A DNA stretch of 27,691 bases from a virus. Position numbers and translations under genes: made by a program. The stretch spans positions 1-27,691 of IMG/VR virus record IMGVR_UViG_3300033143_001169. One strand, 5' to 3'. Of this stretch, positions 2,486 to 27,157 are shown piece after piece (position 1 is the first letter of the stretch; each line of letters opens with the position of its first letter). Under the pieces are notes generated by a model, which saw only the letters and a list, made by a program, of their open reading frames with translations, made no database searches and had not been told where the DNA came from.

Positions 2486-2733
2486 TGAATAAGATACAAT
2501 ATAGAGTAATTAAAGTAAATTCACGTGGAGAGATCATAACTAATGTTGTTTCCAGAGATACATTAATAGAAGCAGAAACAGTAATTAATAATTATCTCAA
2601 AACTAATCCTAGTAGTATATATGAAATACATAAGGTTATCCCATTAGTACAGATTAAACGTAAAGTAATACCTATTGAAACTGAAATAATTAACTTAGAT
2701 CTTGATAACAAAGAAGAGGAGAATAAAGTATAA
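2485..2733 (+). CDS. Small hypothetical protein
   Basis: An 82-residue protein whose ATG overlaps the previous stop (TAATG), preceded by GGAG about ten bases upstream. An earlier in-frame ATG at 2455 lies inside paralog B and lacks support. The N-terminal half reads like an alpha/beta segment beginning MNKIQYRVIKVNSRGEIIT; the C-terminus is acidic and charged. No motif is recognisable. It sits between the CCG paralogs and the cyclotransferase-like gene, coupled to both by TAATG overlaps, so it is probably made with them. Confidence 0.6.
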   Translation: MNKIQYRVIKVNSRGEIITNVVSRDTLIEAETVINNYLKTNPSSIYEIHKVIPLVQIKRKVIPIETEIINLDLDNKEEENKV

Positions 2734-3119
2734 TGGATAAATTAATACATATGGGTGGAGATCAATTAGAAAAGGTACGTGTCTTTGTATATGGTTCTTT
2801 AAAGAAAGGATTTGGTAATCATCCTTATCATTTAAGTAAGGCAAATATGATTGGTGAGGCAGAGACATTACCACAGTATTCTTTATTCTCTTTAGGTTCA
2901 TTTCCTGGAGTCATTAAAGGTGGTGTTACCTCTGTACAAGGTGAGTTATATGAGGTAGATCGTGAAGAACTACGTAGTCTTGATCAACTAGAAGGACATC
3001 CGGGTTTCTACCAACGAGAAGTTATTGATACTAGTGAGGGTGAGGCTTGGATCTATCTCTTACCAGAAGATAAGTACAAAGGGTATGAAGTGATTGAGTC
3101 AGGAATCTGGGGTAACTAG
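2733..3119 (+). CDS. Gamma-glutamylcyclotransferase-like (AIG2/GGCT fold) protein
   Basis: A 128-residue protein with the marks of the GGCT/AIG2-like family, whose classical members release 5-oxoproline from gamma-glutamyl amines. Visible: VFVYGSLKKG at 17-26 (substrate-binding YGSL loop), FPGVIKGG at 57-64, GELYEVD at 70-76, and LDQLEGHPGFYQR at 83-95 with E87 as likely catalytic acid/base. Length is typical. The start at 2733 overlaps the previous stop as TAATG, with GAGGAG 11 bases upstream; an ATG at 2751 is an alternative. Its TAG stop is built into palindrome copy 2. Together with the ATP-grasp gene upstream it suggests making and breaking of gamma-glutamyl or peptide amide bonds; the family also contains amidotransferase-like members, so the substrate is open. 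Confidence 0.82.
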   Translation: MDKLIHMGGDQLEKVRVFVYGSLKKGFGNHPYHLSKANMIGEAETLPQYSLFSLGSFPGVIKGGVTSVQGELYEVDREELRSLDQLEGHPGFYQREVIDTSEGEAWIYLLPEDKYKGYEVIESGIWGN

Positions 3120-3473: not shown

Positions 3474-3623
3474 ATGAAAATATATATAGTACTTTATTCT
3501 TTAAAGTCTGGAGATATAGATATTGCACTCTTTGATAATTATAAAGAAGCTAGCGATTTCCATATGAATGAAACTACTTCATTTTCACTTAAAAGTAGAA
3601 TACTAAATGAAATGATGCAATGA
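3474..3623 (+). CDS. 49-residue hypothetical protein
   Basis: Short ORF that starts one base after the preceding stop (GGGGGG about 11 bases upstream) and ends in an ATGA overlap with the primase-helicase start. The product begins MKIYIVLYSLKSGDIDIALF, looks like a small alpha/beta protein and has no motif I recognise. Position and overlaps on both sides support it as a real member of the operon. Confidence 0.55.
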   Translation: MKIYIVLYSLKSGDIDIALFDNYKEASDFHMNETTSFSLKSRILNEMMQ

Positions 3624-5278
3624 GTAAAGAATTCAAAGAGAGTGGAACAAACATAGGCCATGAAGCATGTATTAAATGTAGTAGTAGTGATGCTATGGCC
3701 TTATACGAGCATGAGGATGGGTCTGTAGATGGGTATTGTTGGTCATGCGATACTTACATCTCAGATCCTATGGGGGAAGAAAAGGTTATGAAAAAGAATG
3801 AGAAAGCGGATGTATCATCCTATGAGAATGTAGAGGATATCTTAAAGTATCCTATGAGGGAATTAACCAGTAGAGGTATATCCTTAGATGCAGCACAGAA
3901 GTATGGTGTACGAGTAAGTACAAATCAAACTACAGGAGAGATTGATGCCCACTACTACCCATATGTAAAGAACGGGCGAGTAGTTGGTTATAATAAAAGA
4001 AGTTTACCAAAGTCATTCCATGCAGTAGGGGATAGGAAAGATCCTACCTTATTTGGACAACATCTCTGTGGTAATGGTGGTAAGTTATTAGTAATTGTAG
4101 AAGGAGAATTAGATACCTTAGCTGCTTATGATATGTTTAGGCAGAAGGGTAAAAAGTATAGAGTAGTTGGCCTACCTACTGGAGCTAATGCAAAGGCGAT
4201 TCGATCAAACTTAGAATGGATTGAAAAGTTTGAGACAGTAATCTTAGCATTAGACCAAGATGAAAAGGGACAGGAGGCTAAGGATATCATAAGCAATCTA
4301 ATCAGTAATGGAAAGGTTAAAATCGCTTCATTCTCTGAGAAAGATCCTAATGAGATGTTAGTGAAAGGAAAAGTAGAAGAGTTCTTTAGTGCAATAATGA
4401 ACGCTGCTGAGTACAGACCTGATGGGATTGTAAGTATTGATGATATCTTTGAGCAGGCAGTTAAGCCTGTAGAATGGGGACTCTCTTGGCCTTGGCCTAA
4501 GTTGACTGAATTAACATTCGGCAGACGTAGGAAAGAGTTATATGGGCTAGGAGCAGGTACGGGGACTGGTAAAACTGAGTTGTTTAAGGAAGTAATAGAC
4601 CATATCTTAGATACAGAAGACAGTCCCGTAGGACTCCTATTCTTAGAAGAGGAACCAGCTATGACAGCTAAGATACTAGCTGGAAAGAGCGTTAATAAAA
4701 CATTCCATATTCCAGATAGTGGATGGAAGCAGGAAGAACTAGTGGGTGCCCTTAATGGTATGAGAGGAAGGGTATTTTTATATGACCATTGGGGGAGTAA
4801 GGATTATGAAACTCTTCGTGCAAAGATACGATATATGGTTGTTACATTAGGGATTAAGGATGTATTCTTAGATCACCTTACTGCATTAGTAGCAGAAGAA
4901 CCAGATGAGAATAAGGCATTAGGCCGTATCATGGCTAATCTAGCAGCTCTGACGCAAGAGTTAGATTTTACCTTATATTTTATATCACATTTAACAACAC
5001 CGTCTGGTACTCCTCATGAAGAGGGGGGACGGGTAACATCTAGTCAATTTAGGGGGAGTCGTGCAATTGCGTTCTGGGCGAATTACCTATTTGGACTAGA
5101 GAGGAATCAACAAGCAGATGATCCAGAAGAACGCCACACCACTACCTTCCGAGTATTGAAGGATAGGTATACTGGTAGAGCAACAGGAGAGGTATTCTAT
5201 ATGGGTTATAATCATGAAGAAGGGCGATTCTATGAAAGAGAGGAGCCTCCAGTTAAAGTAGAGGAGAGTGAATTCTAA
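3620..5278 (+). CDS. T7 gp4-type primase-helicase
   Basis: A 552-residue bifunctional replication enzyme: the N-terminal part makes RNA primers, the C-terminal part is a hexameric 5'-3' DNA helicase. Domains in order: zinc-binding domain with C17/C20 and C40/C43; TOPRIM primase core with VIVEGELDT (E161) and LALDQDE (D211, D213); RecA/DnaB-like helicase with Walker A GAGTGTGKT at 311-319, Walker B VFLDH (D418), and SQFRGSRAI at 475-483 as a likely DNA-binding/arginine-finger region. The acidic tail ends in a Phe (EESEF), as in T7 gp4, where the tail contacts the polymerase. Length is close to T7 gp4 (566). The ATG overlaps the previous stop. An internal ATG at 3788 could give a form lacking the zinc domain (see findings). 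Confidence 0.95.
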   Translation: MSKEFKESGTNIGHEACIKCSSSDAMALYEHEDGSVDGYCWSCDTYISDPMGEEKVMKKNEKADVSSYENVEDILKYPMRELTSRGISLDAAQKYGVRVSTNQTTGEIDAHYYPYVKNGRVVGYNKRSLPKSFHAVGDRKDPTLFGQHLCGNGGKLLVIVEGELDTLAAYDMFRQKGKKYRVVGLPTGANAKAIRSNLEWIEKFETVILALDQDEKGQEAKDIISNLISNGKVKIASFSEKDPNEMLVKGKVEEFFSAIMNAAEYRPDGIVSIDDIFEQAVKPVEWGLSWPWPKLTELTFGRRRKELYGLGAGTGTGKTELFKEVIDHILDTEDSPVGLLFLEEEPAMTAKILAGKSVNKTFHIPDSGWKQEELVGALNGMRGRVFLYDHWGSKDYETLRAKIRYMVVTLGIKDVFLDHLTALVAEEPDENKALGRIMANLAALTQELDFTLYFISHLTTPSGTPHEEGGRVTSSQFRGSRAIAFWANYLFGLERNQQADDPEERHTTTFRVLKDRYTGRATGEVFYMGYNHEEGRFYEREEPPVKVEESEF

Positions 5279-5703
5279 TGGGGGATATGTCAGATTATTA
5301 CCTTGAGATGGAAATGTATCCTGAGTGGGATAGGATATATGATCCTCCTAAAAGGCAGAAGTATCCTAAGGATAAAAGGTCTTTAGAGTTAGCTAATACC
5401 CTAAAGGGATTACTTAAACAAAGAGGTCTTATAGTCCGTATTAACCAAGCAGCTAGTGGTTCATGTTATATTACTTTTACTGACGATAGGATTGGTCAAT
5501 GTAGGGTTGGTAATCATGAAGAGTTAGGAAGGTTAGGGTATAGATGGCATGTTAGGTGGGATATTAAGGAGAGATATGTCAATAAGGATAAAGGACATAA
5601 TCAATTCATATATCCATCTAATGAGTTAAGAGATTTAGTATCCCATATCTATAATTATTATCAGAAGATATTAGGAACAGGAGATGAATTTAAATGCGTT
5701 TAG
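5278..5703 (+). CDS. Hypothetical protein in replication operon
   Basis: A 141-residue protein, start overlapping the primase-helicase stop (TAATG) with GGAG 11 bases upstream. The N-terminus is acidic and aromatic, then comes a likely alpha/beta core around SCYITFTDDRIGQCRVGNHE and YRWHVRWDI. Basic and Tyr-rich C-terminal part. No family recognised. Its place between helicase and polymerase exonuclease suggests a DNA-metabolism accessory role, but only by position. The last ten bases overlap the next gene. Confidence 0.65.
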   Translation: MGDMSDYYLEMEMYPEWDRIYDPPKRQKYPKDKRSLELANTLKGLLKQRGLIVRINQAASGSCYITFTDDRIGQCRVGNHEELGRLGYRWHVRWDIKERYVNKDKGHNQFIYPSNELRDLVSHIYNYYQKILGTGDEFKCV

Positions 5704-6164
5704 TATTTGATTGTGAAACAAACGGTTTACTAGATGAGGTTACTCAAATTTGGTGTATTGTTGCAAAGGATATTGATCAACCAGACAATGCACTATATTA
5801 CTTCCAACCAGATGATATAGCTGTTGGATTAGAATTTTTATTAGAAGCAGAGGTGTTAATTGGTCACAATATTATCGGGTATGATATACCTGTATTTAAG
5901 AAATTCCATCCTTTTGAATATACTGGGGAACTTATTGATACATTAATTGTCTCAAGGTTACAATGGCCTGATAGGCCAAGCCCTAAAGAATATAAGGGGA
6001 GAGCACCTCATAGTGTTGAGGCTTGGGGGCATAGGTTAGGTTTCCATAAGCCAGAACATAATGATTGGACACAGTTTAGTCCTGAGATGTTACATAGATG
6101 TAAGGAGGATGTACTGGGGACTGAGAAGATTTATAATGCTTTATTAGAGGAGAGAAAGAGATGA
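5694..6164 (+). CDS. DNA polymerase 3'-5' exonuclease domain, separate gene
   Basis: A 156-residue DEDD-type exonuclease matching the N-terminal proofreading domain of T7 DNA polymerase (gp5). Marks: FDCETNG with D6 and E8 (Exo I), GHNIIGYDIP with D64 (Exo II), IDTLIVSRL with D82, HSVEAWGHRLG at 106-116 (T7 has a closely similar HALEAWGYRLG), and a final KEDV with D139 (Exo III). It ends after about 156 residues with no polymerase domain; that domain is encoded 790 bases downstream at 6955. The two products must work together, presumably as a complex, to give a proofreading polymerase. The ATG overlaps the previous gene; an ATGATG junction joins it to the next. Confidence 0.88.
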   Translation: MRLVFDCETNGLLDEVTQIWCIVAKDIDQPDNALYYFQPDDIAVGLEFLLEAEVLIGHNIIGYDIPVFKKFHPFEYTGELIDTLIVSRLQWPDRPSPKEYKGRAPHSVEAWGHRLGFHKPEHNDWTQFSPEMLHRCKEDVLGTEKIYNALLEERKR

Positions 6165-6361
6165 TGCCAATAGATGTTTTATTCTTAGCTAATGTTATGG
6201 AAAGAGTAGTTAATAAAACTCCTAAAATGGGGTTTGAAGGAGCTATGGGGTTCATGATAATGGAACTAAGAACTGGAGTTAAAGAATATCAAAATGGAAA
6301 TCAAAAGGCACTTACTATGGATAATGTTAAATCAGGAAGAGTAAGAGGAGATAGAAAATGA
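6161..6361 (+). CDS. Small hypothetical protein between the polymerase parts
   Basis: A 66-residue, largely helical protein beginning MMPIDVLFLANVMERVV with a basic C-terminus. ATG at 6161 overlaps the exonuclease stop; a second Met at 6164 is equally possible. No motif recognised. It is the first of four small ORFs that lie between the exonuclease and polymerase genes. Confidence 0.55.
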   Translation: MMPIDVLFLANVMERVVNKTPKMGFEGAMGFMIMELRTGVKEYQNGNQKALTMDNVKSGRVRGDRK

Positions 6362-6423
6362 TATACTATGCAGTATATACAATATTATATATAGAACCAG
6401 TTATGAAGGTGATATGGGTATGA
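6358..6423 (+). CDS. 21-residue ORF (possible leader peptide)
   Basis: A very short ORF (MIYYAVYTILY...) with ATGA overlaps at both ends, joining the 66-residue gene to the SLOG gene. It closes what would otherwise be a gap of about 60 bases, so its main role may be translational coupling. The upstream GAGGAG (6346-6351) supports initiation. No function can be given and it may be only a spacer. Confidence 0.35.
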   Translation: MIYYAVYTILYIEPVMKVIWV

Positions 6424-6776
6424 AGTTAATTATAGCCGGGAGCAGGACACTTAATGAGGTAGGGTTAATAAGTGCTGTTATTGAAAGGAATGATATCTTA
6501 TTAGATATTAAAGAAGTTGTATCAGGGTGTGCCAAAGGTATTGATACAGCAGGTGCAGAGTGGGCAGCTATTCATGGTATTACAATAAAATCATTCCCAG
6601 CAGATTGGAATAAATTTGGAAGATCTGCTGGTTATATACGAAATTCAGAGATGGCTAAATATGGAGATGCATTATTAGCTATTTGGGATGGTCATAGTAA
6701 GGGGACTCTTAATATGATTACTACTATGCAGAAACTTGAGAAGCCTGTATATATTATGGAGGTCTATTATAAATGA
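6420..6776 (+). CDS. SLOG-superfamily (DUF2493/YspA-like) protein
   Basis: A 118-residue Rossmann-like protein. Marks: MKLIIAGSRTL at 1-11, VVSGCAKGIDTAGAEWA at 34-50 (the SGxAxGID loop shared with DprA and LOG proteins), and FPADWNKFGRSAGYIRN at 61-77, followed by ALLAIWDG. Known SLOG members bind nucleotides or nucleotide-derived ligands, some as sensors, some as hydrolases. Start 6420 is preferred to the ATG at 6414 because it gives an ATGA overlap, places AAGGT nine bases upstream, and fits the family's usual N-terminus. It lies between the exonuclease and polymerase genes; a direct link to the polymerase is not shown. Confidence 0.85.
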   Translation: MKLIIAGSRTLNEVGLISAVIERNDILLDIKEVVSGCAKGIDTAGAEWAAIHGITIKSFPADWNKFGRSAGYIRNSEMAKYGDALLAIWDGHSKGTLNMITTMQKLEKPVYIMEVYYK

Positions 6777-6955
6777 AAAGTAGACAAGAGAAAGCTAATG
6801 AGATACGTGATTTGATAACACAAATTAATGCTCGTGTTGCTGAATTACAGGAAGACGGATATAGTGTTGTATTTAGTATAAGAGACTCTCAGGTAGCGTG
6901 GGATATCATAGGTAAAATAAGAGATGTTAAAATAACTAGAGTATCATCACTATAA
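6773..6955 (+). CDS. Small hypothetical protein, coiled-coil-like
   Basis: A 60-residue protein with ATGA overlap at its start (GGAG upstream) and TAATG overlap with the polymerase at its end. The first 30 residues (MKSRQEKANEIRDLITQINA onward) look like one amphipathic helix, followed by a short beta segment around YSVVFSIRD. No family recognised. Being coupled to the polymerase start, it could help set polymerase translation. Confidence 0.55.
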   Translation: MKSRQEKANEIRDLITQINARVAELQEDGYSVVFSIRDSQVAWDIIGKIRDVKITRVSSL

Positions 6956-8334
6956 TGGCTAACTGGGAGGAGAGTCTATACATAGAAACGAGAGTCGCAC
7001 AAATAATCTCCCAACAAGAACAGAATGGTTGGTTGTTTGATAGCGAGTTAGCTAGGAGACACGTCGACTCATTAGATAAGATAACAGGAGAATTATATGA
7101 TAAGATCACACAGGGATTCGGGCCTGTCAGGGACACGAAGAAGAGAACGTGCGTTCGACCGTTTGCAAAGGAAGGTGGTTATGCTGCAAAGGTCACTAAA
7201 CTCCTACAGGGAGATGAATTACCTATTGGAGGCCCGTTTACATACATTAGAGGTAAGCTCTCAGAAAAGGGATGGGTTGCAGATAACTTACTTTCCAGAG
7301 GATGGAAGCCAACCATATTTACAGAAAAAACCGGACAACCAAAGCTAACAGAGGAGGGTGAACCAGTCCAATCTCTATTAGATATGGAGGACAGTATAGG
7401 TAAGGACTACAGTGATTGGCTTACGTATGAAAAGAGACGAGCTACTATCATGAATAGGACGAATGATAAGAGGGGGTGGTTGAATAATGTACGAGAAGAT
7501 GGTAGAATACCTGCCTATGCTAATAGTTGTGGTACTAATACTGGGCGTATGCGGCACAGCCTCGTTGTTAATGTCCCTAAAGCCTCTAAAGGAATCTTGT
7601 TCGGGAAAGAAATGCGGGAGTTGTTTACAGTGCCGGAGGGAAAGGTACTTATCGGGCACGACGCAAGCGGACTGGAGGCAAGAATCACAGGACACTACCT
7701 CAACGACAAAGGACTAATATACAATCTTATAAACGGTAACTCTAAAGATGGTACTGATTTCCACACCCAAATATGGAATCCTATTAGAGATTTTATTAAG
7801 GATAGGGATGAAGCCAAGACAGTAGAATATGCCTTGATATATGGGGCTAGTGATAAGAAGTTAGGATCTATAGCATCATATAATCCTAAGAACTGGGGAC
7901 ATAGTAAACTAGGCAAAGAGATACGTAGACGTATTATGGAGAGTATGCCAGCATTAGGTGAGTTGACAGATAGGGTTAAGAAGGCTTCTGAGAGGGGCTA
8001 CTTGATTGGATTGGATGGTAGGAAGTTATATACTAGATCATCCCACAGTGCCTTAAACGTCCTCTTCCAAGGTGCTGGAGCCATAGTAATGAAGAAGAGT
8101 ATGATATTATTAGATGATTGGATCAAAGAGGAGGGTTGGACTAGTGAAGAATACTTAAAAGTAGGAGACTTTCACGATGAGGCTCAGGCCGAAGTGAAAA
8201 ATAATAAAGAAATAATTGAACTTTATTCCGATTTAGCTGTCAAATCAATAAGACAATCAGGAGAGCACTTTAATTTAAGATGTCCTCTTGATGCAGAAGC
8301 TATAGTTGGAAGTAATTGGGCAGAGACCCACTAA
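6955..8334 (+). CDS. Family A DNA polymerase, polymerase domain only (T7 gp5-like)
   Basis: A 459-residue protein matching the polymerase part of T7 gp5. Marks: N-terminal WEESLYIETRVAQIISQQEQ, which lines up with the T7 segment just after its exonuclease domain; NTGRMRHS at 195-202; motif A GHDASGLEAR at 234-243 (D236); motif B AKTVEYALIYG at 287-297; LDGRKLYTRS at 353-362; motif C FHDEA at 406-410. All key metal ligands are present, so it should be active. The segment between about 56 and 118 is shorter than the T7 region that holds the thioredoxin-binding loop, so thioredoxin use is doubtful. There is no exonuclease domain; this is supplied by 5694-6164. Starts in a TAATG overlap. Confidence 0.93.
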   Translation: MANWEESLYIETRVAQIISQQEQNGWLFDSELARRHVDSLDKITGELYDKITQGFGPVRDTKKRTCVRPFAKEGGYAAKVTKLLQGDELPIGGPFTYIRGKLSEKGWVADNLLSRGWKPTIFTEKTGQPKLTEEGEPVQSLLDMEDSIGKDYSDWLTYEKRRATIMNRTNDKRGWLNNVREDGRIPAYANSCGTNTGRMRHSLVVNVPKASKGILFGKEMRELFTVPEGKVLIGHDASGLEARITGHYLNDKGLIYNLINGNSKDGTDFHTQIWNPIRDFIKDRDEAKTVEYALIYGASDKKLGSIASYNPKNWGHSKLGKEIRRRIMESMPALGELTDRVKKASERGYLIGLDGRKLYTRSSHSALNVLFQGAGAIVMKKSMILLDDWIKEEGWTSEEYLKVGDFHDEAQAEVKNNKEIIELYSDLAVKSIRQSGEHFNLRCPLDAEAIVGSNWAETH

Positions 8335-8351
8335 ATAGAGGAAATAAACAG

Positions 8352-8798
8352 ATGGTAATTCAAGGTAAAGCAATGTGGTGTGCAGTACAAGCACCAAACG
8401 ATAAGTTCCCACCACCAGTATATGTGGTAGACTTAGTAGTTGATGAATCTAATGCAGCTACATTACGTGCAGCAGGTATTGAAGTCAAAGATAAGGATGG
8501 TGTACTTAGTGTCAAAGCTAAACGTAAACAATTCCGTAAGGATGGTACATTAAATACTAAACCTAATTGTGTTGATGCACAGAAGCGTCCATTCGAGGCA
8601 TTGATTGGTAATGGCAGTCTAGTTAATCTACAAGTAAACCCTTTCGATTGGGAATTTGCAGGTAAGACAGGTCGTTCATTAGACTTCGTAGGTATCCAAG
8701 TATTAGAACTTGTAGAGTTCTCAGGTACTAGTGATGAGTTTGAAGCATCAGAAGTAGCACCAGATGTAGCTGATGGTCAATTTGACGATGAGTTCTAA
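8352..8798 (+). CDS. Single-stranded DNA-binding protein
   Basis: A 148-residue protein that resembles phage ssDNA-binding proteins: it opens MVIQGKAMWCAVQAPNDKF, carries a basic stretch KAKRKQFRKDGTLNTKPN, then LIGNGSLVNLQVNPFDWEFAGKTG, and ends in an acidic tail DGQFDDEF with a terminal Phe. That tail type, as in T7 gp2.5 and bacterial SSB, contacts polymerase and helicase. It is shorter than T7 gp2.5 (232). Start 8352 is chosen for GAGGAAA nine bases upstream; an ATG at 8316 lies inside the polymerase gene. Codons look like those of a well-expressed gene (many CGT and GGT). Function is assigned by pattern and place rather than by a diagnostic motif. Confidence 0.72.
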   Translation: MVIQGKAMWCAVQAPNDKFPPPVYVVDLVVDESNAATLRAAGIEVKDKDGVLSVKAKRKQFRKDGTLNTKPNCVDAQKRPFEALIGNGSLVNLQVNPFDWEFAGKTGRSLDFVGIQVLELVEFSGTSDEFEASEVAPDVADGQFDDEF

Positions 8799-9338: not shown

Positions 9339-9644
9339 ATGAGTGAAGATACAAAAGAAGAAGCATGTTGTGAAGATGAAACATGTAAAGGTAATGATGG
9401 GGAGCAAGAAGTAATCTATTCTAACGATGGTTATCGTGTAGAGAAGATTTCATTACAGACAGGTATGGATCAATATCAATACTTATATGGTGTATATAGT
9501 AATACATATGGTGTATTGGAACTTGAGACTCCTATTCTAGCTAAGGCACTTAATAGTGCTGATGAGTTAGAGGCTGCTGTTAATGCATTCTTCCAAAGTA
9601 AGTCCTTTGATGTTAAGTCCGACTCGGTAATTGAGTCAGCTTAA
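9339..9644 (+). CDS. Hypothetical acidic protein
   Basis: A 101-residue acidic protein. ATG 9339 is preferred because GAGAGGA lies eight bases upstream; the longer frame from 9267 would run through the hairpin region and lacks a ribosome site. It opens MSEDTKEEACCEDETCKGND, a Cys-dotted acidic segment, then has a YQYLYGVYSNTYGVLELE core and ends near the exonuclease start in a TAATG overlap. May be distantly related to the gene at 8987. No known family recognised. Confidence 0.6.
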   Translation: MSEDTKEEACCEDETCKGNDGEQEVIYSNDGYRVEKISLQTGMDQYQYLYGVYSNTYGVLELETPILAKALNSADELEAAVNAFFQSKSFDVKSDSVIESA

Positions 9645-10528
9645 TGAAGGTCTTAATCGACGCGGATATAATTGTATATTCTTGTGGCTTTAGTGCTGAG
9701 AAACCCATCTGGCGTGTAGTGGTTGAGGGGTCAGTATTGGCCTCTTTCCGTTATAAGAAGGAGTTAGATGAATGGGTATCTTCTGTAGGGTTAGTTGACT
9801 ATAAGGCCGTTAAGGATGCTGAGGTTGGCCCTGTAGCCCATGCTTTAGGTAATGCTAAGGAGTTAATCAAGAAGATATTGTTACGTACTGGAGCTGATGA
9901 GTATCAGTTGTATCTAACAGGTAAGGGTAATTTCAGGGATGAGATTGCTACCATTAAACCTTATAAGGGGAATAGAGATTCATCTCATAAACCACATCAT
10001 TACGATAGTCTTATACGTTATCTCACTGAGAACTGGGGAGCTATTACTGTAGAAGGGATAGAGGCAGATGATGCTATGTCTACTGAGCAGATGAGATGTC
10101 ATATAGGTAGTTTATCCGCTGAATTTGGAATTACTAAGTACTTATTTGAAGAGTTAAAAAACTTCGGTACTACATGTATAGCTACTATTGATAAAGATTT
10201 AGATATGGTTCCCGGTTGGCATTATAACTGGAATAAGGATGTTAAGTATTTTATTGATGAAGAGACTGCTATAACTTGGTTCTATGCACAGTTAATAATG
10301 GGGGATCAAACAGATAACATACAAGGTATCCCCGGAGCTGGTAAGGCTAAAGCTAAGAATACACTAATGTCTTGTGACACAGAAGAGGATATGTATTGGG
10401 CTGTACTTGATTTATATCAAGCCTATTATAGTACACTAGGTATGAAACCTATGACAGCGTTGCTGGAGAATGCTCGGTTACTTTGGATGAGACGAGAGGA
10501 GGGAGTAGATTGGAATCCCCCTTGTTAA
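9644..10528 (+). CDS. 5'-3' exonuclease (FEN/T7 gp6-like)
   Basis: A 294-residue metal-dependent nuclease of the FEN/PIN type, which removes RNA primers and, in T7-like phages, degrades host DNA and helps recombination. Acidic ligands are visible in order: LIDADII (D6, D8), VEGIEADDAM (E140, D142, D143), ATIDKDLDM (D183, D185) and GDQTDNIQGIPGAGKAKA at 220-237, the helix-hairpin-helix (H3TH) with D221 and D224. Length agrees with T7 gp6 (about 300). The ATG overlaps the previous stop as TAATG. The C-terminal codons contain the ribosome site and TTG start of the next gene. Confidence 0.9.
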   Translation: MKVLIDADIIVYSCGFSAEKPIWRVVVEGSVLASFRYKKELDEWVSSVGLVDYKAVKDAEVGPVAHALGNAKELIKKILLRTGADEYQLYLTGKGNFRDEIATIKPYKGNRDSSHKPHHYDSLIRYLTENWGAITVEGIEADDAMSTEQMRCHIGSLSAEFGITKYLFEELKNFGTTCIATIDKDLDMVPGWHYNWNKDVKYFIDEETAITWFYAQLIMGDQTDNIQGIPGAGKAKAKNTLMSCDTEEDMYWAVLDLYQAYYSTLGMKPMTALLENARLLWMRREEGVDWNPPC

Positions 10529-15898: not shown

Positions 15899-18800
15899 CT
15901 ATCTACTTCCACTAGAAGATCTACTTCCACTAGAAGATCTACTTCCACCACGAGACTTACCCTCTGAAGCTATCTCATCAATTATATATCCTTTTCCGGG
16001 CATTACAAACATACGCTGTATATCATCTAATGCCTTAGTAGGATCTTGGTCTATTATTAGCTTCTTACCAGCTATTAAAACACGACCTATATCGGATACT
16101 GTAGGTCCCGCTATAGCAGCAGCGAAACCACCAGTACGGGTAGCTCCTGAGGATATTAAATCTTGCAGAAGACCTACACCACCAATTGATGTTACACCTC
16201 TTAGGTATCTCTCAGTATTGGTGAACTCTCTATCATCCCCTTTAACAACCCTACGTAGCTCGTCGATACTCATACCTATCGTACTTGCACCTCCAGCATA
16301 CCATATTAAAGGTTGAGCATTCCCCCTTAGTAAGGGTTTTATAACATTATCCTTAACGAACCTAGATTGGTGGAATGCGAAAGTCTTAAACTTAGTAAGT
16401 AATCTACCATAAGGAGTTTGCCACCCTAGGGGTATCTTATCAGGAGTATTCCTAAAGTTAATATCATTTGAGAACCTCAAACCAGCTCTATATAAATCAG
16501 TATCCGTAATAGGTCTTTGTGTAGGTAGCCCCATTTCTCTCATTCGCGCTGTAATCTTTCTAGCCTTAGCACCCTTTATCTCACCTTGTTGTATCTTTTT
16601 AAACTTAGACATTAAATCTTCTGCATAAGCACGTCCTATATTAGCACCTAGTCTACGTTGTATCTTCTCAGCAGCAATGAATCCCGTATATTTAAGGACA
16701 CGTTCTCCATGCTTACCAATACTACTTGACTCACCCGCAATCTCCATAAGTGTGGTCTCTAATGCTGCACCAGTGCGTTCTGAAAAATCACCACCCTCTT
16801 TAGTCAAAGCATTCTTAAATCCCTTTGAGAATACCTTTAGGGTAGTGAATGGGTTAGCAGTAAGATTACTCAATCTAGTAATACCATTTACTGTAGCCTG
16901 CATCATATTTAACATCTGAGCTGTTGATAACTTAGTGGCTGTCTCAAAGGAGGATGCAGATTGTAAGAACTTACGCTGCTGATCCCCTAATTTCATCGCA
17001 CTTCTTATTATATCAGAGTTAGAGTCTCCTATAGACGTGTAGAATGTTTGTCTTGCCAACTCAGCATCCTTTGGACTTCTCTCTTTAGCTATACGGCTAA
17101 AGATAGCATCTGCATGATAATCCTGTACTAAGACACCCTTACTGTTGACACCATCAAACATCCGAGCTGACTCTATTCTTCTGTACGAATCATTATAATA
17201 ACGAGCTACAACAGCAGAGGGATCTTTTACTAGGAAGGGTTCTAGTATATTCTCGAATTTCTCACTTATACTTCTAGGGTTTTCTAGATGTGAGGATCTT
17301 GAGTGATGGGATTTATTCATCATTACTCTTAAAAGATCTAGGGCTTGAGATTGGGACATTTGTTTCTCCCCATTCTTACCTGTCTTAGCAGCCTTTAAGA
17401 ACTCAGATACAACATCCTTATCCCCCACTATAGAGTGGAGTGTCTCCTTCATACTACTACCATTAATACTTGTTTTTGTCCAAGCATCAACCCAAGCCTT
17501 TTTCCCCTCCTTTGAGGATAACAAATCCTTATCATATATACGTGGGAAGTAACCATCTTTTGATGCCTTCGCCTTCATTTTAGCTCCGGCCTTCCTAGTA
17601 AGGACACCTACACCTACAGCATCATCAATTACCTGATTAAACTCTCTTCTCATCTGTTTAGCGGCAGCCAGCACATGAGGTGAGGCTTCTGAGGGTTTCA
17701 TTGTATGGTTTAATAGATTACGCACATCAGACATCTCTTCCTTATTCAAATGTCCTACCTTCTTTTCAAAATGCCACAGTCTATCTGCAACCTTAAGATC
17801 TATATTCTCTAAGGTTCTATTTAATCTTTCAGCTAAAGATCTACCAGCACTACCAAATCCTTTAATAACGGCAGTCGGAGAAGACCATATATGTGCATTA
17901 GCTAATACCCTAGCAGTATCATCATTAGCCCACTCACTCATCTTACCTATGCCTTTACGTGTATGTCTAAATGCTAAAGGCATTCCCATACCCAACATAC
18001 CACCATATAATGCACCTTCTGGCCCGTCAACATAACCACCAATAGCAGCACCTACAGATGATGATGCAAGGTGATGAGATAGAGATTGGCTTATAGAACC
18101 CCCCTGATTGAGGTGATTACCTAGAGCAGCAACACCCTCTTCCTGATTCTTGACAGCCTTATCAAAGGAATCTAACATTACAGAATTAGGATGTATTGAA
18201 TCTGTTAATATCTCTCTTTCTGTCTTAAGAGCTAGCTTCTCATACTTTACTGCCGACTTAACAGATTTAGAAGTTGTACCAGAGATATTATTAGTAAATG
18301 CCTTCTCAAAATCATCCTCTCTACCTATCCAACTATCCAATGATCTTTGTTCCCAAGAGTCTATAATTGTAGTCTCATTAGTACCTTGGGCTGTAGTAGG
18401 TTGAACCCCACCCTTCCTATTAACAAAGTAGGGTGCTGCGGTCTTTCCCGGAGAGGGGAGAGCCTTCTTCACCTCTGGGGAGGGAAGTACTTTAAGAACC
18501 TCTGGAGGTGCTAATCGTTTGACCTCCTTTGGAGAGGGTAGAGACTTTAGTACCTCTGGGGGCGGGAGGGCCATCTGCATAGCTTCCTCATGAGGAGCAC
18601 CTTTTGCACGGTATTTCTTATATGAATCAATAACCTGAGCACCTACATACTTAATAGCAGGGCCTAGTATGGCCCCGAAGGAAGCAGCAATTCCTACATC
18701 AGATGCATGGATTTCACCATCCTCGGCCAAATTATACGCAGCCATATCAATAGCAGCGACGCCACTCCCAATTATGGCAGCAGCCTTATATGTTTGACCA

Positions 18801-19273
18801 ATAGGCAACCAAGATGAAGGATCTGAAACAATTTGGATACCCTTAGCTGTTACTTCTGCTGCAATACTATCACTTAGATTATTTCTATTCTTTTCTGTTG
18901 ATAACCTCACCCTCTCACTTCTTTCCAATTCAGTTTCAGATCTAGTACCTAAGAAGTTACCTTGTTCATCATATTCAGGAACAGCCTGCTTAACTGAGTT
19001 GAATAGACTTCTCCATACATTCTGGAGAACTGAGAAGCTATCATTATATTTCATCTGATCGCCAACATCACTGATGAAGTCAGATGCCTTAGTATATATA
19101 TCCAAATCTTGAGCTTTCATTTGAGGATAATCTTTATACTCCTCAGACACCTCACTTCTTATAGAAGAGATGTCAGGCATCCCAGAGTTGGGATCACCAC
19201 CATCCATCTCATTCTTATTACCCTCACGGATATCAGCTATATCAGGAAGATCACCACTTAATAAAGCACCCAT
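15899..19273 (-). CDS. Large internal virion (ejection) protein
   Basis: A 1124-residue protein, the largest gene in the window, placed in the third position of an ejection set like P22 gp7-gp20-gp16. Such proteins leave the capsid ahead of the DNA and form a channel through the cell envelope. N-terminus is acidic and disordered; small Gly/Ala-rich hydrophobic helices follow (about 165-182, 196-213 and near 410-435, AAIGGYVDGPEGALYGGMLG); the long middle is charged and helical. Two repeat zones stand out: Pro-rich LPSP/APPEVLK repeats at 237-276 and a Ser/Gly/Arg repeat at the very end. No lytic transglycosylase motif is seen, unlike T7 gp16. The ATG overlaps the preceding stop (TAATG). Confidence 0.75.
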   Translation of the reverse strand: MGALLSGDLPDIADIREGNKNEMDGGDPNSGMPDISSIRSEVSEEYKDYPQMKAQDLDIYTKASDFISDVGDQMKYNDSFSVLQNVWRSLFNSVKQAVPEYDEQGNFLGTRSETELERSERVRLSTEKNRNNLSDSIAAEVTAKGIQIVSDPSSWLPIGQTYKAAAIIGSGVAAIDMAAYNLAEDGEIHASDVGIAASFGAILGPAIKYVGAQVIDSYKKYRAKGAPHEEAMQMALPPPEVLKSLPSPKEVKRLAPPEVLKVLPSPEVKKALPSPGKTAAPYFVNRKGGVQPTTAQGTNETTIIDSWEQRSLDSWIGREDDFEKAFTNNISGTTSKSVKSAVKYEKLALKTEREILTDSIHPNSVMLDSFDKAVKNQEEGVAALGNHLNQGGSISQSLSHHLASSSVGAAIGGYVDGPEGALYGGMLGMGMPLAFRHTRKGIGKMSEWANDDTARVLANAHIWSSPTAVIKGFGSAGRSLAERLNRTLENIDLKVADRLWHFEKKVGHLNKEEMSDVRNLLNHTMKPSEASPHVLAAAKQMRREFNQVIDDAVGVGVLTRKAGAKMKAKASKDGYFPRIYDKDLLSSKEGKKAWVDAWTKTSINGSSMKETLHSIVGDKDVVSEFLKAAKTGKNGEKQMSQSQALDLLRVMMNKSHHSRSSHLENPRSISEKFENILEPFLVKDPSAVVARYYNDSYRRIESARMFDGVNSKGVLVQDYHADAIFSRIAKERSPKDAELARQTFYTSIGDSNSDIIRSAMKLGDQQRKFLQSASSFETATKLSTAQMLNMMQATVNGITRLSNLTANPFTTLKVFSKGFKNALTKEGGDFSERTGAALETTLMEIAGESSSIGKHGERVLKYTGFIAAEKIQRRLGANIGRAYAEDLMSKFKKIQQGEIKGAKARKITARMREMGLPTQRPITDTDLYRAGLRFSNDINFRNTPDKIPLGWQTPYGRLLTKFKTFAFHQSRFVKDNVIKPLLRGNAQPLIWYAGGASTIGMSIDELRRVVKGDDREFTNTERYLRGVTSIGGVGLLQDLISSGATRTGGFAAAIAGPTVSDIGRVLIAGKKLIIDQDPTKALDDIQRMFVMPGKGYIIDEIASEGKSRGGSRSSSGSRSSSGSR
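15901..15954 (-). repeat. 18-bp tandem repeat at 3' end of ejection-protein gene
   Basis: ATCTACTTCCACTAGAAG occurs twice exactly (15901-15918, 15919-15936), followed by a diverged third unit at 15937-15954. It keeps the reading frame and encodes repeated SSSGSR at the extreme C-terminus of the 1124-residue protein. Being a whole number of codons, its copy number could change by slippage without breaking the gene. Confidence 0.85.
18446..18565 (-). repeat. Degenerate Pro-rich coding repeat
   Basis: This stretch encodes residues about 237-276 of the large ejection protein, made of repeated units of the type PPEVLK.LPSP (for example PPPEVLKSLPSP, APPEVLKVLPSP, SPEVKKALPSP). On the DNA it shows as repeated 'acctctgg(r)g' and 'ggagagggtag' blocks. 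It probably forms a stiff extended linker between the N-terminal and main domains. Confidence 0.75.
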
Positions 19274-25602: not shown

Positions 25603-25775
25603 CTTCTACCTCGTCCTCGACGCATACTACGTCTAACATTTTGTGCTGCTAACATACTTCCATTACGTACAACAGTAGCAACTATAACACAGGCAGGTTC
25701 CCACCATACGCAATCATCCCATACAGTAGAAGCCCATACATTTGCTTTCCATACACCATCAGTAGTCAGACTCAT
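25599..25775 (-). CDS. 58-residue Trp/Val-repeat protein with basic tail
   Basis: Short ORF with ATGA overlaps at both ends. The N-terminal half has a regular VW pattern (VWKANVWASTVWDDCVWW; VW at 8, 13, 18 and 23), a short hydrophobic stretch CVIVATVV follows, and the C-terminus is strongly basic (RRSMRRGRGRR). The five-residue VW repeat suggests a small beta structure; the tail could bind nucleic acid or phosphate. Reminiscent of small VW-repeat proteins in other phage tail regions (recollection). Overlaps and regular pattern make it likely real. Confidence 0.62.
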   Translation of the reverse strand: MSLTTDGVWKANVWASTVWDDCVWWEPACVIVATVVRNGSMLAAQNVRRSMRRGRGRR

Positions 25776-27157
25776 ACATTAAACGGAGTACCACTTCCAT
25801 CTCCAGTAATAGTTACTCCATTAACTTTATCAACATTAGAACCTAGATTCCCATTAGTATGAGCAACTTGTAATTCACTAACCTCTGAAGTAGTATCATC
25901 ATAGGAAATAGTAGCTCCACCTGTGTTAGTAACCTTAAAGTTACCACGTACAGATATATTACCACCACTTGAAGCAGCCACTGAAAGTTGACCGTTTCCT
26001 TCTAGACTCATGTTGTCTGTACCAGTTGTGTCCTTATTATCAATTTGGATACCACCAGAGTAGTGTCTCATATTTAGATTTGTATTACCCACTGCTGCTC
26101 CAAAGTCAATAGCAGGAGTATTAGAGCCAGCAACACCGGACATACAACCCAGTAATAAGTAATTACCAGCAGCGGACAGTGTAAGGGTAGTGTGTAAGAT
26201 ACACTTGTGGAGATGGGCAGTACCAAGAGTTGTAGTATTAATATCACAATCTCTTAGTTGTATATCACCAGTCGGACTTGTTGCTATACCAGATACACTA
26301 GCACCTGTTATTTCTGTGTTTGAAAAGTCTTGTCCACCTAATGCCGCTGTCCACCCTACACCTTCAAACTTCTGTGAGGTCTGACTGGCTGCAAAAGTAA
26401 TACTTGATCCCGGTGTAACTATGAAGCGAGAGAACCCTAATGAAGCAGCAAGAGTATTTGCATCTGCTATATTATTTACAGGATTATCTGGTAAACCATT
26501 AGTATAGTCTACAGCACCGGCAGTACCATTAACTGTATCAATCCAAATAGACCCAATGTAATCAGCTTCAACCTGACGTAAACGCCTACCCGCACTAGAC
26601 GTTACATTATGCGTAGCCCCTGTCAGTACTTCATCCCATATAAGATCAACACCAGCAGCACCAAGGACAACACCATCGGTATCTGTAATTATATCTAAAT
26701 CATTTTGTACTGTTGTAATAGTTCCCGGAATAGTTGTTCCTGTATCTACAAGAATAGAATCCACATTGGTATCAACTGTAGCTAAGTTAGTAGCTGTGGC
26801 TGCGTTATCAGTACCTCGCATAGTCTCTGCTGCTGTGTCTAAATCAAAGGCATGTTCAGCAGAAGCATGTCCATAAGTCTCAACACCAAGAGATACATCT
26901 AACCATATCTTAGTGCCAGTTTGATCAATAACATATACTCTAATACGAGCAGCACTCATCTCTGTTGCTGTAAGAACTAAAGAGTAACCAGTACCCTCAT
27001 CAGTAGGAAGGTTAGTGGTATTCGCCTCAGCACCCTCGTCCTTCATAATCTTTAAGTCACCAGTAGCAAAAGTAGCATTGATAATTAAATCAATACCATC
27101 AGGAGCTACTAGGTCAAATGTAATTGTTTTAGATTGATTATACTTACCTAGTATCAT
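25772..27157 (-). CDS. Fibre / tailspike-like protein with beta-helix character
   Basis: A 461-residue protein. The N-terminal beta domain (MILGKYNQSKTITFDLVAPD, then VYVIDQTGTKIWLDVSLG) resembles upper-fibre attachment modules. A helical, possibly coiled linker follows (VDTNVDSILVDTGTTIPGTI). From about 205 there is DYIGSIWIDTVNGTAGAVDY, NNIADANTLAASLGFSRFIV and a run of short beta turns with Gly/Asn/Thr, as in pectate-lyase-like right-handed beta-helix proteins. It probably binds or cuts surface polysaccharide, though no catalytic residues can be named. Overlaps neighbours on both sides. Confidence 0.72.
   Translation of the reverse strand: MILGKYNQSKTITFDLVAPDGIDLIINATFATGDLKIMKDEGAEANTTNLPTDEGTGYSLVLTATEMSAARIRVYVIDQTGTKIWLDVSLGVETYGHASAEHAFDLDTAAETMRGTDNAATATNLATVDTNVDSILVDTGTTIPGTITTVQNDLDIITDTDGVVLGAAGVDLIWDEVLTGATHNVTSSAGRRLRQVEADYIGSIWIDTVNGTAGAVDYTNGLPDNPVNNIADANTLAASLGFSRFIVTPGSSITFAASQTSQKFEGVGWTAALGGQDFSNTEITGASVSGIATSPTGDIQLRDCDINTTTLGTAHLHKCILHTTLTLSAAGNYLLLGCMSGVAGSNTPAIDFGAAVGNTNLNMRHYSGGIQIDNKDTTGTDNMSLEGNGQLSVAASSGGNISVRGNFKVTNTGGATISYDDTTSEVSELQVAHTNGNLGSNVDKVNGVTITGDGSGTPFNV

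Follow-up and report, generated by a model that had tools for sequence, protein, structure and literature searches.

The locus considered here raises the question of whether a T7-type DNA polymerase whose exonuclease and polymerase parts lie in two separate genes is a broken gene, a pair of independently acting enzymes, or a proofreading polymerase made of two chains. It is found in the window, the whole stretch of 27,691 bases that was analysed (IMG/VR record IMGVR_UViG_3300033143_001169), which is a fragment of a larger genome. The setting is a replication module on the plus strand, ordered as a T7 gp4-type primase/helicase (3620-5278; PHROG 239, E = 2e-173), a 141-aa ORF with no assigned function, the exonuclease gene, four small ORFs and the polymerase gene. 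Downstream, on the same strand, lie genes for a gp2.5-type single-stranded DNA-binding protein (8346-8798; PHROG 112, E = 7e-15, the matching ORF being listed as 8316-8798), a T7 gp6-type 5'-3' exonuclease (9644-10528; PHROG 107, E = 5e-66) and a RusA-like resolvase.

Some features elsewhere in the window may be recorded alongside. Upstream of the replication module, a gene resembling ATP-grasp S6 glutaminyl transferases (464-1294) and one resembling gamma-glutamyl cyclotransferases (2733-3119) are situated near each other, and an ATP-grasp gene is also close to the primase in Citrobacter phage CVT22. On the minus strand, ORFs of 1124 aa (15899-19273) and 461 aa (25772-27157), neither of which matches a PHROG at E <= 0.001, stand among the apparent structural genes.

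Two halves of a T7-type polymerase

The exonuclease gene (5694-6164, plus strand) encodes 156 aa and matches PHROG 17, 'DNA polymerase' (E = 1e-31), PHROG 403, 'DNA polymerase exonuclease subunit' (E = 9e-19), and, using phmmer, residues 2-182 of T7 gp5 (E = 2e-9). Its AlphaFold model has a pLDDT of 97.3 and a pTM of 0.91, and the top PDB matches to this model in Foldseek are the exonuclease domain of T7 DNA polymerase (E = 1e-11). Alignment places its D6, E8, D64 and D139 at the four DEDD carboxylates of T7, D5, E7, D65 and D174. The survival of all catalytic residues, claimed when the locus was first described, therefore holds for the carboxylates of both this gene and the polymerase, but not for the exo-III tyrosine (T7 Y170), which is replaced by Arg135. 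As fused relatives in the Zobellviridae have the same H-R-C-x-E-D motif at this site, the substitution is a trait of the lineage rather than a sign of decay.

The polymerase gene (6955-8334, plus strand) encodes 459 aa of a family A enzyme without an exonuclease domain, matching Pfam DNA_pol_A (E = 4e-29), PHROG 17 (E = 1e-85) and T7 gp5 (E = 2.5e-40). The palm carboxylates D236 and D408 are present (T7 D475 and D654), as are R284, K288, Y292, H407 and E409 (T7 R518, K522, Y526, H653 and E655), which include the arginine, lysine and tyrosine of the O-helix. Modelled singly, as was the exonuclease, from an alignment of the window with relatives in viral contigs, it reaches a pLDDT of 91.9 and a pTM of 0.87, with T7 DNA polymerase providing the top PDB matches (E = 3.5e-28, TMq about 0.8). 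The insertion in the thumb that corresponds to the thioredoxin-binding region of T7, which had been thought shortened, is so relative to T7 (50 residues against 76, at the same place), but this is nothing special: other relatives range from 19 to 86 residues and many fused ones have 19, so that its length is ordinary and unrelated to the split. The blocks of residues 61-100 that cover this insertion are modelled at low confidence (57-82).

Looking at the two genes together, they match consecutive stretches of PHROG 17 (672-827 for the exonuclease and 834-1233 for the polymerase); in native T7 numbering, the former stops at about residue 191 and the latter starts at about residue 207. This implies that only the interdomain linker is missing and that the cut lies within it, confirming the original proposal of a T7-type polymerase split at its domain border, with both ORFs located as first described. 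They occupy different reading frames, and other genes fill the 790 bases that separate them; hence the single polypeptide of the T7 gp5 type is not what is found here.

The four small ORFs originally reported in this gap are also present, all on the plus strand. The first (6161-6361; 66 aa), which has no match in Pfam or PHROG and is not assigned a function, overlaps the exonuclease stop codon by ATGA. It is followed by the 21-aa ORF MIYYAVYTILYIEPVMKVIWV (6358-6423), a 120-aa SLOG protein (6414-6776; YspA/cpYpsA-related, YAcAr; PF10686, E = 1.6e-10; PHROG 289, E = 1e-28) and a 60-aa ORF (6773-6955) directly before the polymerase. The six genes from exonuclease to polymerase all overlap or abut stop to start, by ATGA or a similar sequence.

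The same split in an independent genome

The nearest relative, L006 (IMGVR_UViG_3300032212_000016; 49,976 bp), comes from another metagenome and is essentially a complete genome, as its contig ends overlap by 253 bases, 252/253 of which are identical. It likewise has separate exonuclease (142-606) and polymerase (839-2203) genes, with 66% and 75% amino acid identity to those of the window respectively; the primase/helicase counterparts are 76% identical and region 8346-8798, encoding the gp2.5-like protein, 81%. The corresponding thumb insertion of its polymerase is also 50 residues long. The preliminary description had named two observations that would overturn it, a faulty assembly join or read error and a separate intact polymerase elsewhere. 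The recurrence of the same split in this independent assembly argues against the first, while the second is contradicted by the single family A polymerase in the 27.7-kb window fragment and the single one in the L006 genome; no match to a PolC/DnaE-type or PolB polymerase was obtained.

Comparison of the window and L006 by the NG86 method gives, with dS near saturation, a dN of 0.29 and dS of 1.69 for the exonuclease (dN/dS about 0.17) and a dN of 0.21 and dS of 2.74 for the polymerase (dN/dS about 0.07). These ratios indicate that both genes are under purifying selection. In combination with the intact catalytic carboxylates, this bears out the earlier view that the split is not decay. Hence the split is real, old and stable, and reflects neither an assembly error nor a decaying gene.

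The contents of the gap are less constant. In L006 it extends to 232 bases and holds only ORFs of 22 aa and 53-55 aa. The 22-aa ORF (603-671) is 71% identical over 21 aligned residues to the 21-aa ORF of the window, making this hydrophobic sequence (MIYYAVY...) a candidate microprotein, and the 53-55-aa ORF is 45% identical to the 60-aa ORF, each being directly upstream of the polymerase. A proposed homology between the 60-aa ORF and a small ORF in another split relative, L014, was dropped, as the alignment is unconvincing. The 66-aa gene is absent from the L006 gap, and a search of the L006 genome for a SLOG counterpart, run without a positive control, gave no match. Each of these genes sits exactly where, in the shorter L006 order (603-670), one gene stops and the next starts at an ATGA, and the overlaps are left unbroken. 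Because the nearest relative is without them, they are read as probable later cassette insertions and not as parts of the polymerase. The idea that SLOG is a functional partner of split polymerases was rejected, since no T7-type exonuclease or polymerase occurs within 3 kb of the SLOG relatives found in six other viral contigs, and the search of L006 gave no SLOG gene. By eye, a further ORF in L006 (5049-5510) resembles an HNH endonuclease; it is situated between the 5'-3' exonuclease and the gene that follows, a position at which the window has no counterpart.

Repeated origins of the split

The arrangement of the two domains was compared across 90 loci containing both, a sample biased by being chosen on exonuclease similarity and by the addition by hand of three named split phages; 74 were fused and 16 scored as split. 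One of the latter, L033, was discounted as a border split, having a frameshift inside the polymerase domain (3956-5705) and near-identical fused neighbours, which leaves 15. The break probably reflects an error in sequencing or a mutation that arose recently. Matches in pelagiphages and roseophages labelled jointly as 'DNA polymerase' and 'hypothetical protein' were considered as extra splits and set aside, the two examples checked being fused. Other split relatives (L014, L007, L060, L104 and L099) have different small ORFs in the same position.

Parsimony on the trees requires 4-5 changes between the fused and split states. On a thinned polymerase tree, AU tests rejected a single clade of all split loci (p = 9e-44) and a clade of the window with L006, L060, L104, L014 and L007 (p = 0.001), but did not reject one consisting of the window, L006, L060 and L104 (p = 0.30). 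These rejections imply that the split state arose separately at least three times. Fission is a simpler reading of the direction of change than fusion, given that T7 is fused, as are most of the relatives.

The exonuclease and polymerase trees both place the window in the clade that holds the Zobellviridae L002-L004, and by these two replication genes the phage is Zobellviridae-like. The split loci L007 and L014 have polymerases that pair strongly and exonucleases that do not (AU p = 0.035, in a post hoc comparison involving long branches), which may hint that split exonucleases are exchangeable. A separate conflict is seen at the fused locus L047, where the exonuclease (3998-4426) groups on the Zobellviridae side of the trees and the polymerase (4457-5713) on the other; this suggests that domains are exchanged between fused genes too.

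Alternative readings of the locus

The alternative that survives best, though it is unlikely, is that the exonuclease acts alone, as a free proofreader or as a nuclease for end trimming or nucleotide salvage, leaving the polymerase to replicate without a bound editing domain. The exonuclease folds well by itself in the AlphaFold model, free DnaQ-like exonucleases exist and the polymerase model is complete without it; the L007/L014 mismatch adds a weak hint of exonuclease exchange, and purifying selection on the gene would be equally expected were its product to act alone. However, the gene is located exactly at the place of the gp5 exonuclease domain, its nearest relatives are the exonuclease domains of fused polymerases, and the two trees broadly agree on the clade to which the window belongs.

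There is a slim chance that the exonuclease/polymerase border is a recurrent site of both fission and gene insertion and that the product of the 60-aa ORF is a third subunit, bridging or regulating the two chains in place of the linker. Slightly less credit can be given to the exonuclease and polymerase having separate phage origins and being joined later, instead of descending from one divided gene. The difference in identity to the same Zobellviridae-type proteins, about 50-58% for the exonuclease and only 26-33% for the polymerase, could be taken to favour two sources, but both belong to one large clade with the Zobellviridae, and the stem branch of the polymerase is simply longer (0.87 against 0.31).

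That a group I intron, an intein or a programmed frameshift rejoins the halves into one chain is very improbable. The DNA polymerase genes of phages are known to attract introns, Pf-WMP3 being one example (PMC3428280), but the region between the genes has no Rfam match to a group I intron and no homing endonuclease among the Pfam and PHROG matches of its ORFs, and the halves start and stop independently, in different frames, on either side of the intervening genes. Sequencing error, assembly error or a decaying polymerase can be dismissed, for while a frameshift-type broken copy does occur among the relatives, inside the polymerase domain of L033, the coding sequence filling the 790-base gap, the intact and selected genes and, decisively, the conserved split in L006 all stand against it.

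Comparable systems

The split does not stand out as unusual, as the same division has been deposited for other phages and is in print for the Zobellviridae. Most members of this family were reported in 2023 to have a single two-domain polymerase gene, with independent exonuclease and polymerase genes in a few (PMC10143988). The latter resemble the window in having a T7-type family A polymerase, a two-domain split and the same kind of replication module; the SLOG and 66-aa insertions are particular to the window, and the paper gives no analysis of the split. GenBank records of Synechococcus phages S-SBP1 and WH11-B and of uncultured Mediterranean phage uvMED S45-C4 (Ashivirus and kin, Autographiviridae) annotate a separate exonuclease next to the polymerase; it is a DnaQ-like or 'T7-like DNA polymerase 3'-5' exonuclease' gene, and the family A polymerase comes after it. 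The cut is at the same border, but these are a separate lineage, whose two genes share about 40 bp and have none between them. Podoviridae sp. ctwe8250 (MW202615, uncultured) has adjacent exonuclease and polymerase genes, in that order and both annotated as DNA polymerase, separated by one small ORF; it differs from the window in the identity of this ORF, in its 65-kb genome and in a polymerase only about 35% identical. PHROGs contains families named 'DNA polymerase exonuclease subunit'. Hence the border-split, two-gene T7-type polymerase has been recorded before, and the window adds another case. The split occurs in three lineages or more, marine cyanophages and ctwe8250 among them.

Other divided phage polymerases differ in where or how they are cut. 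In the OM43 phages MEP401 and MEP402 the cut is inside the polymerase domain (PMC10580990), rather than at the border as in the window. The T4-type gp43A and gp43B of Aeromonas phages 25 and 44RR are likewise a phage replicative polymerase in two chains, but of family B, and the split goes with either a seg-type homing endonuclease or an insert that is not translated. In phage 25 the two chains co-purify and show polymerase activity (PMC2988022), providing a precedent for a two-chain enzyme. No study testing the assembly of a T7-type exonuclease-polymerase pair was found in the literature searched.

A probable polymerase in two chains

The preferred explanation, to which a probability of roughly 0.8 is attached, is a stable fission of a fused gp5-type polymerase, the halves of which are probably co-translated and assemble in trans into a proofreading enzyme, with the SLOG and 66-aa genes as later insertions. 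The ancestral fused gene, in a Zobellviridae-like phage, would have been severed within the linker joining its domains, after which small genes came to occupy the gap, both halves being retained as whole, folded and selected enzymes. Joint translation of the six genes from exonuclease to polymerase is probable, because they overlap or abut stop to start. The two chains would most likely bind in the geometry of T7 gp5 to form the replicative polymerase, which would then work with the gp4-type primase/helicase and gp2.5-type single-stranded DNA-binding protein of the phage itself. The original suggestion that the chains would have to reassemble for proofreading is thus a reasonable expectation.

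The new observations are the recurrence of the split, the recurrence of unrelated small ORFs at the border and the probable insertion of SLOG and 66-aa genes at ATGA junctions. Separate exonucleases of this kind are missed or given the wrong label when annotation relies on whole-gene similarity. Natural two-chain forms of the best-studied proofreading polymerase offer a ready-made test of whether editing needs a covalent link between the domains. The recurrence of the split in at least three lineages implies that phages can do without the linker, and that having copying and proofreading under separate control is tolerated and perhaps favoured.
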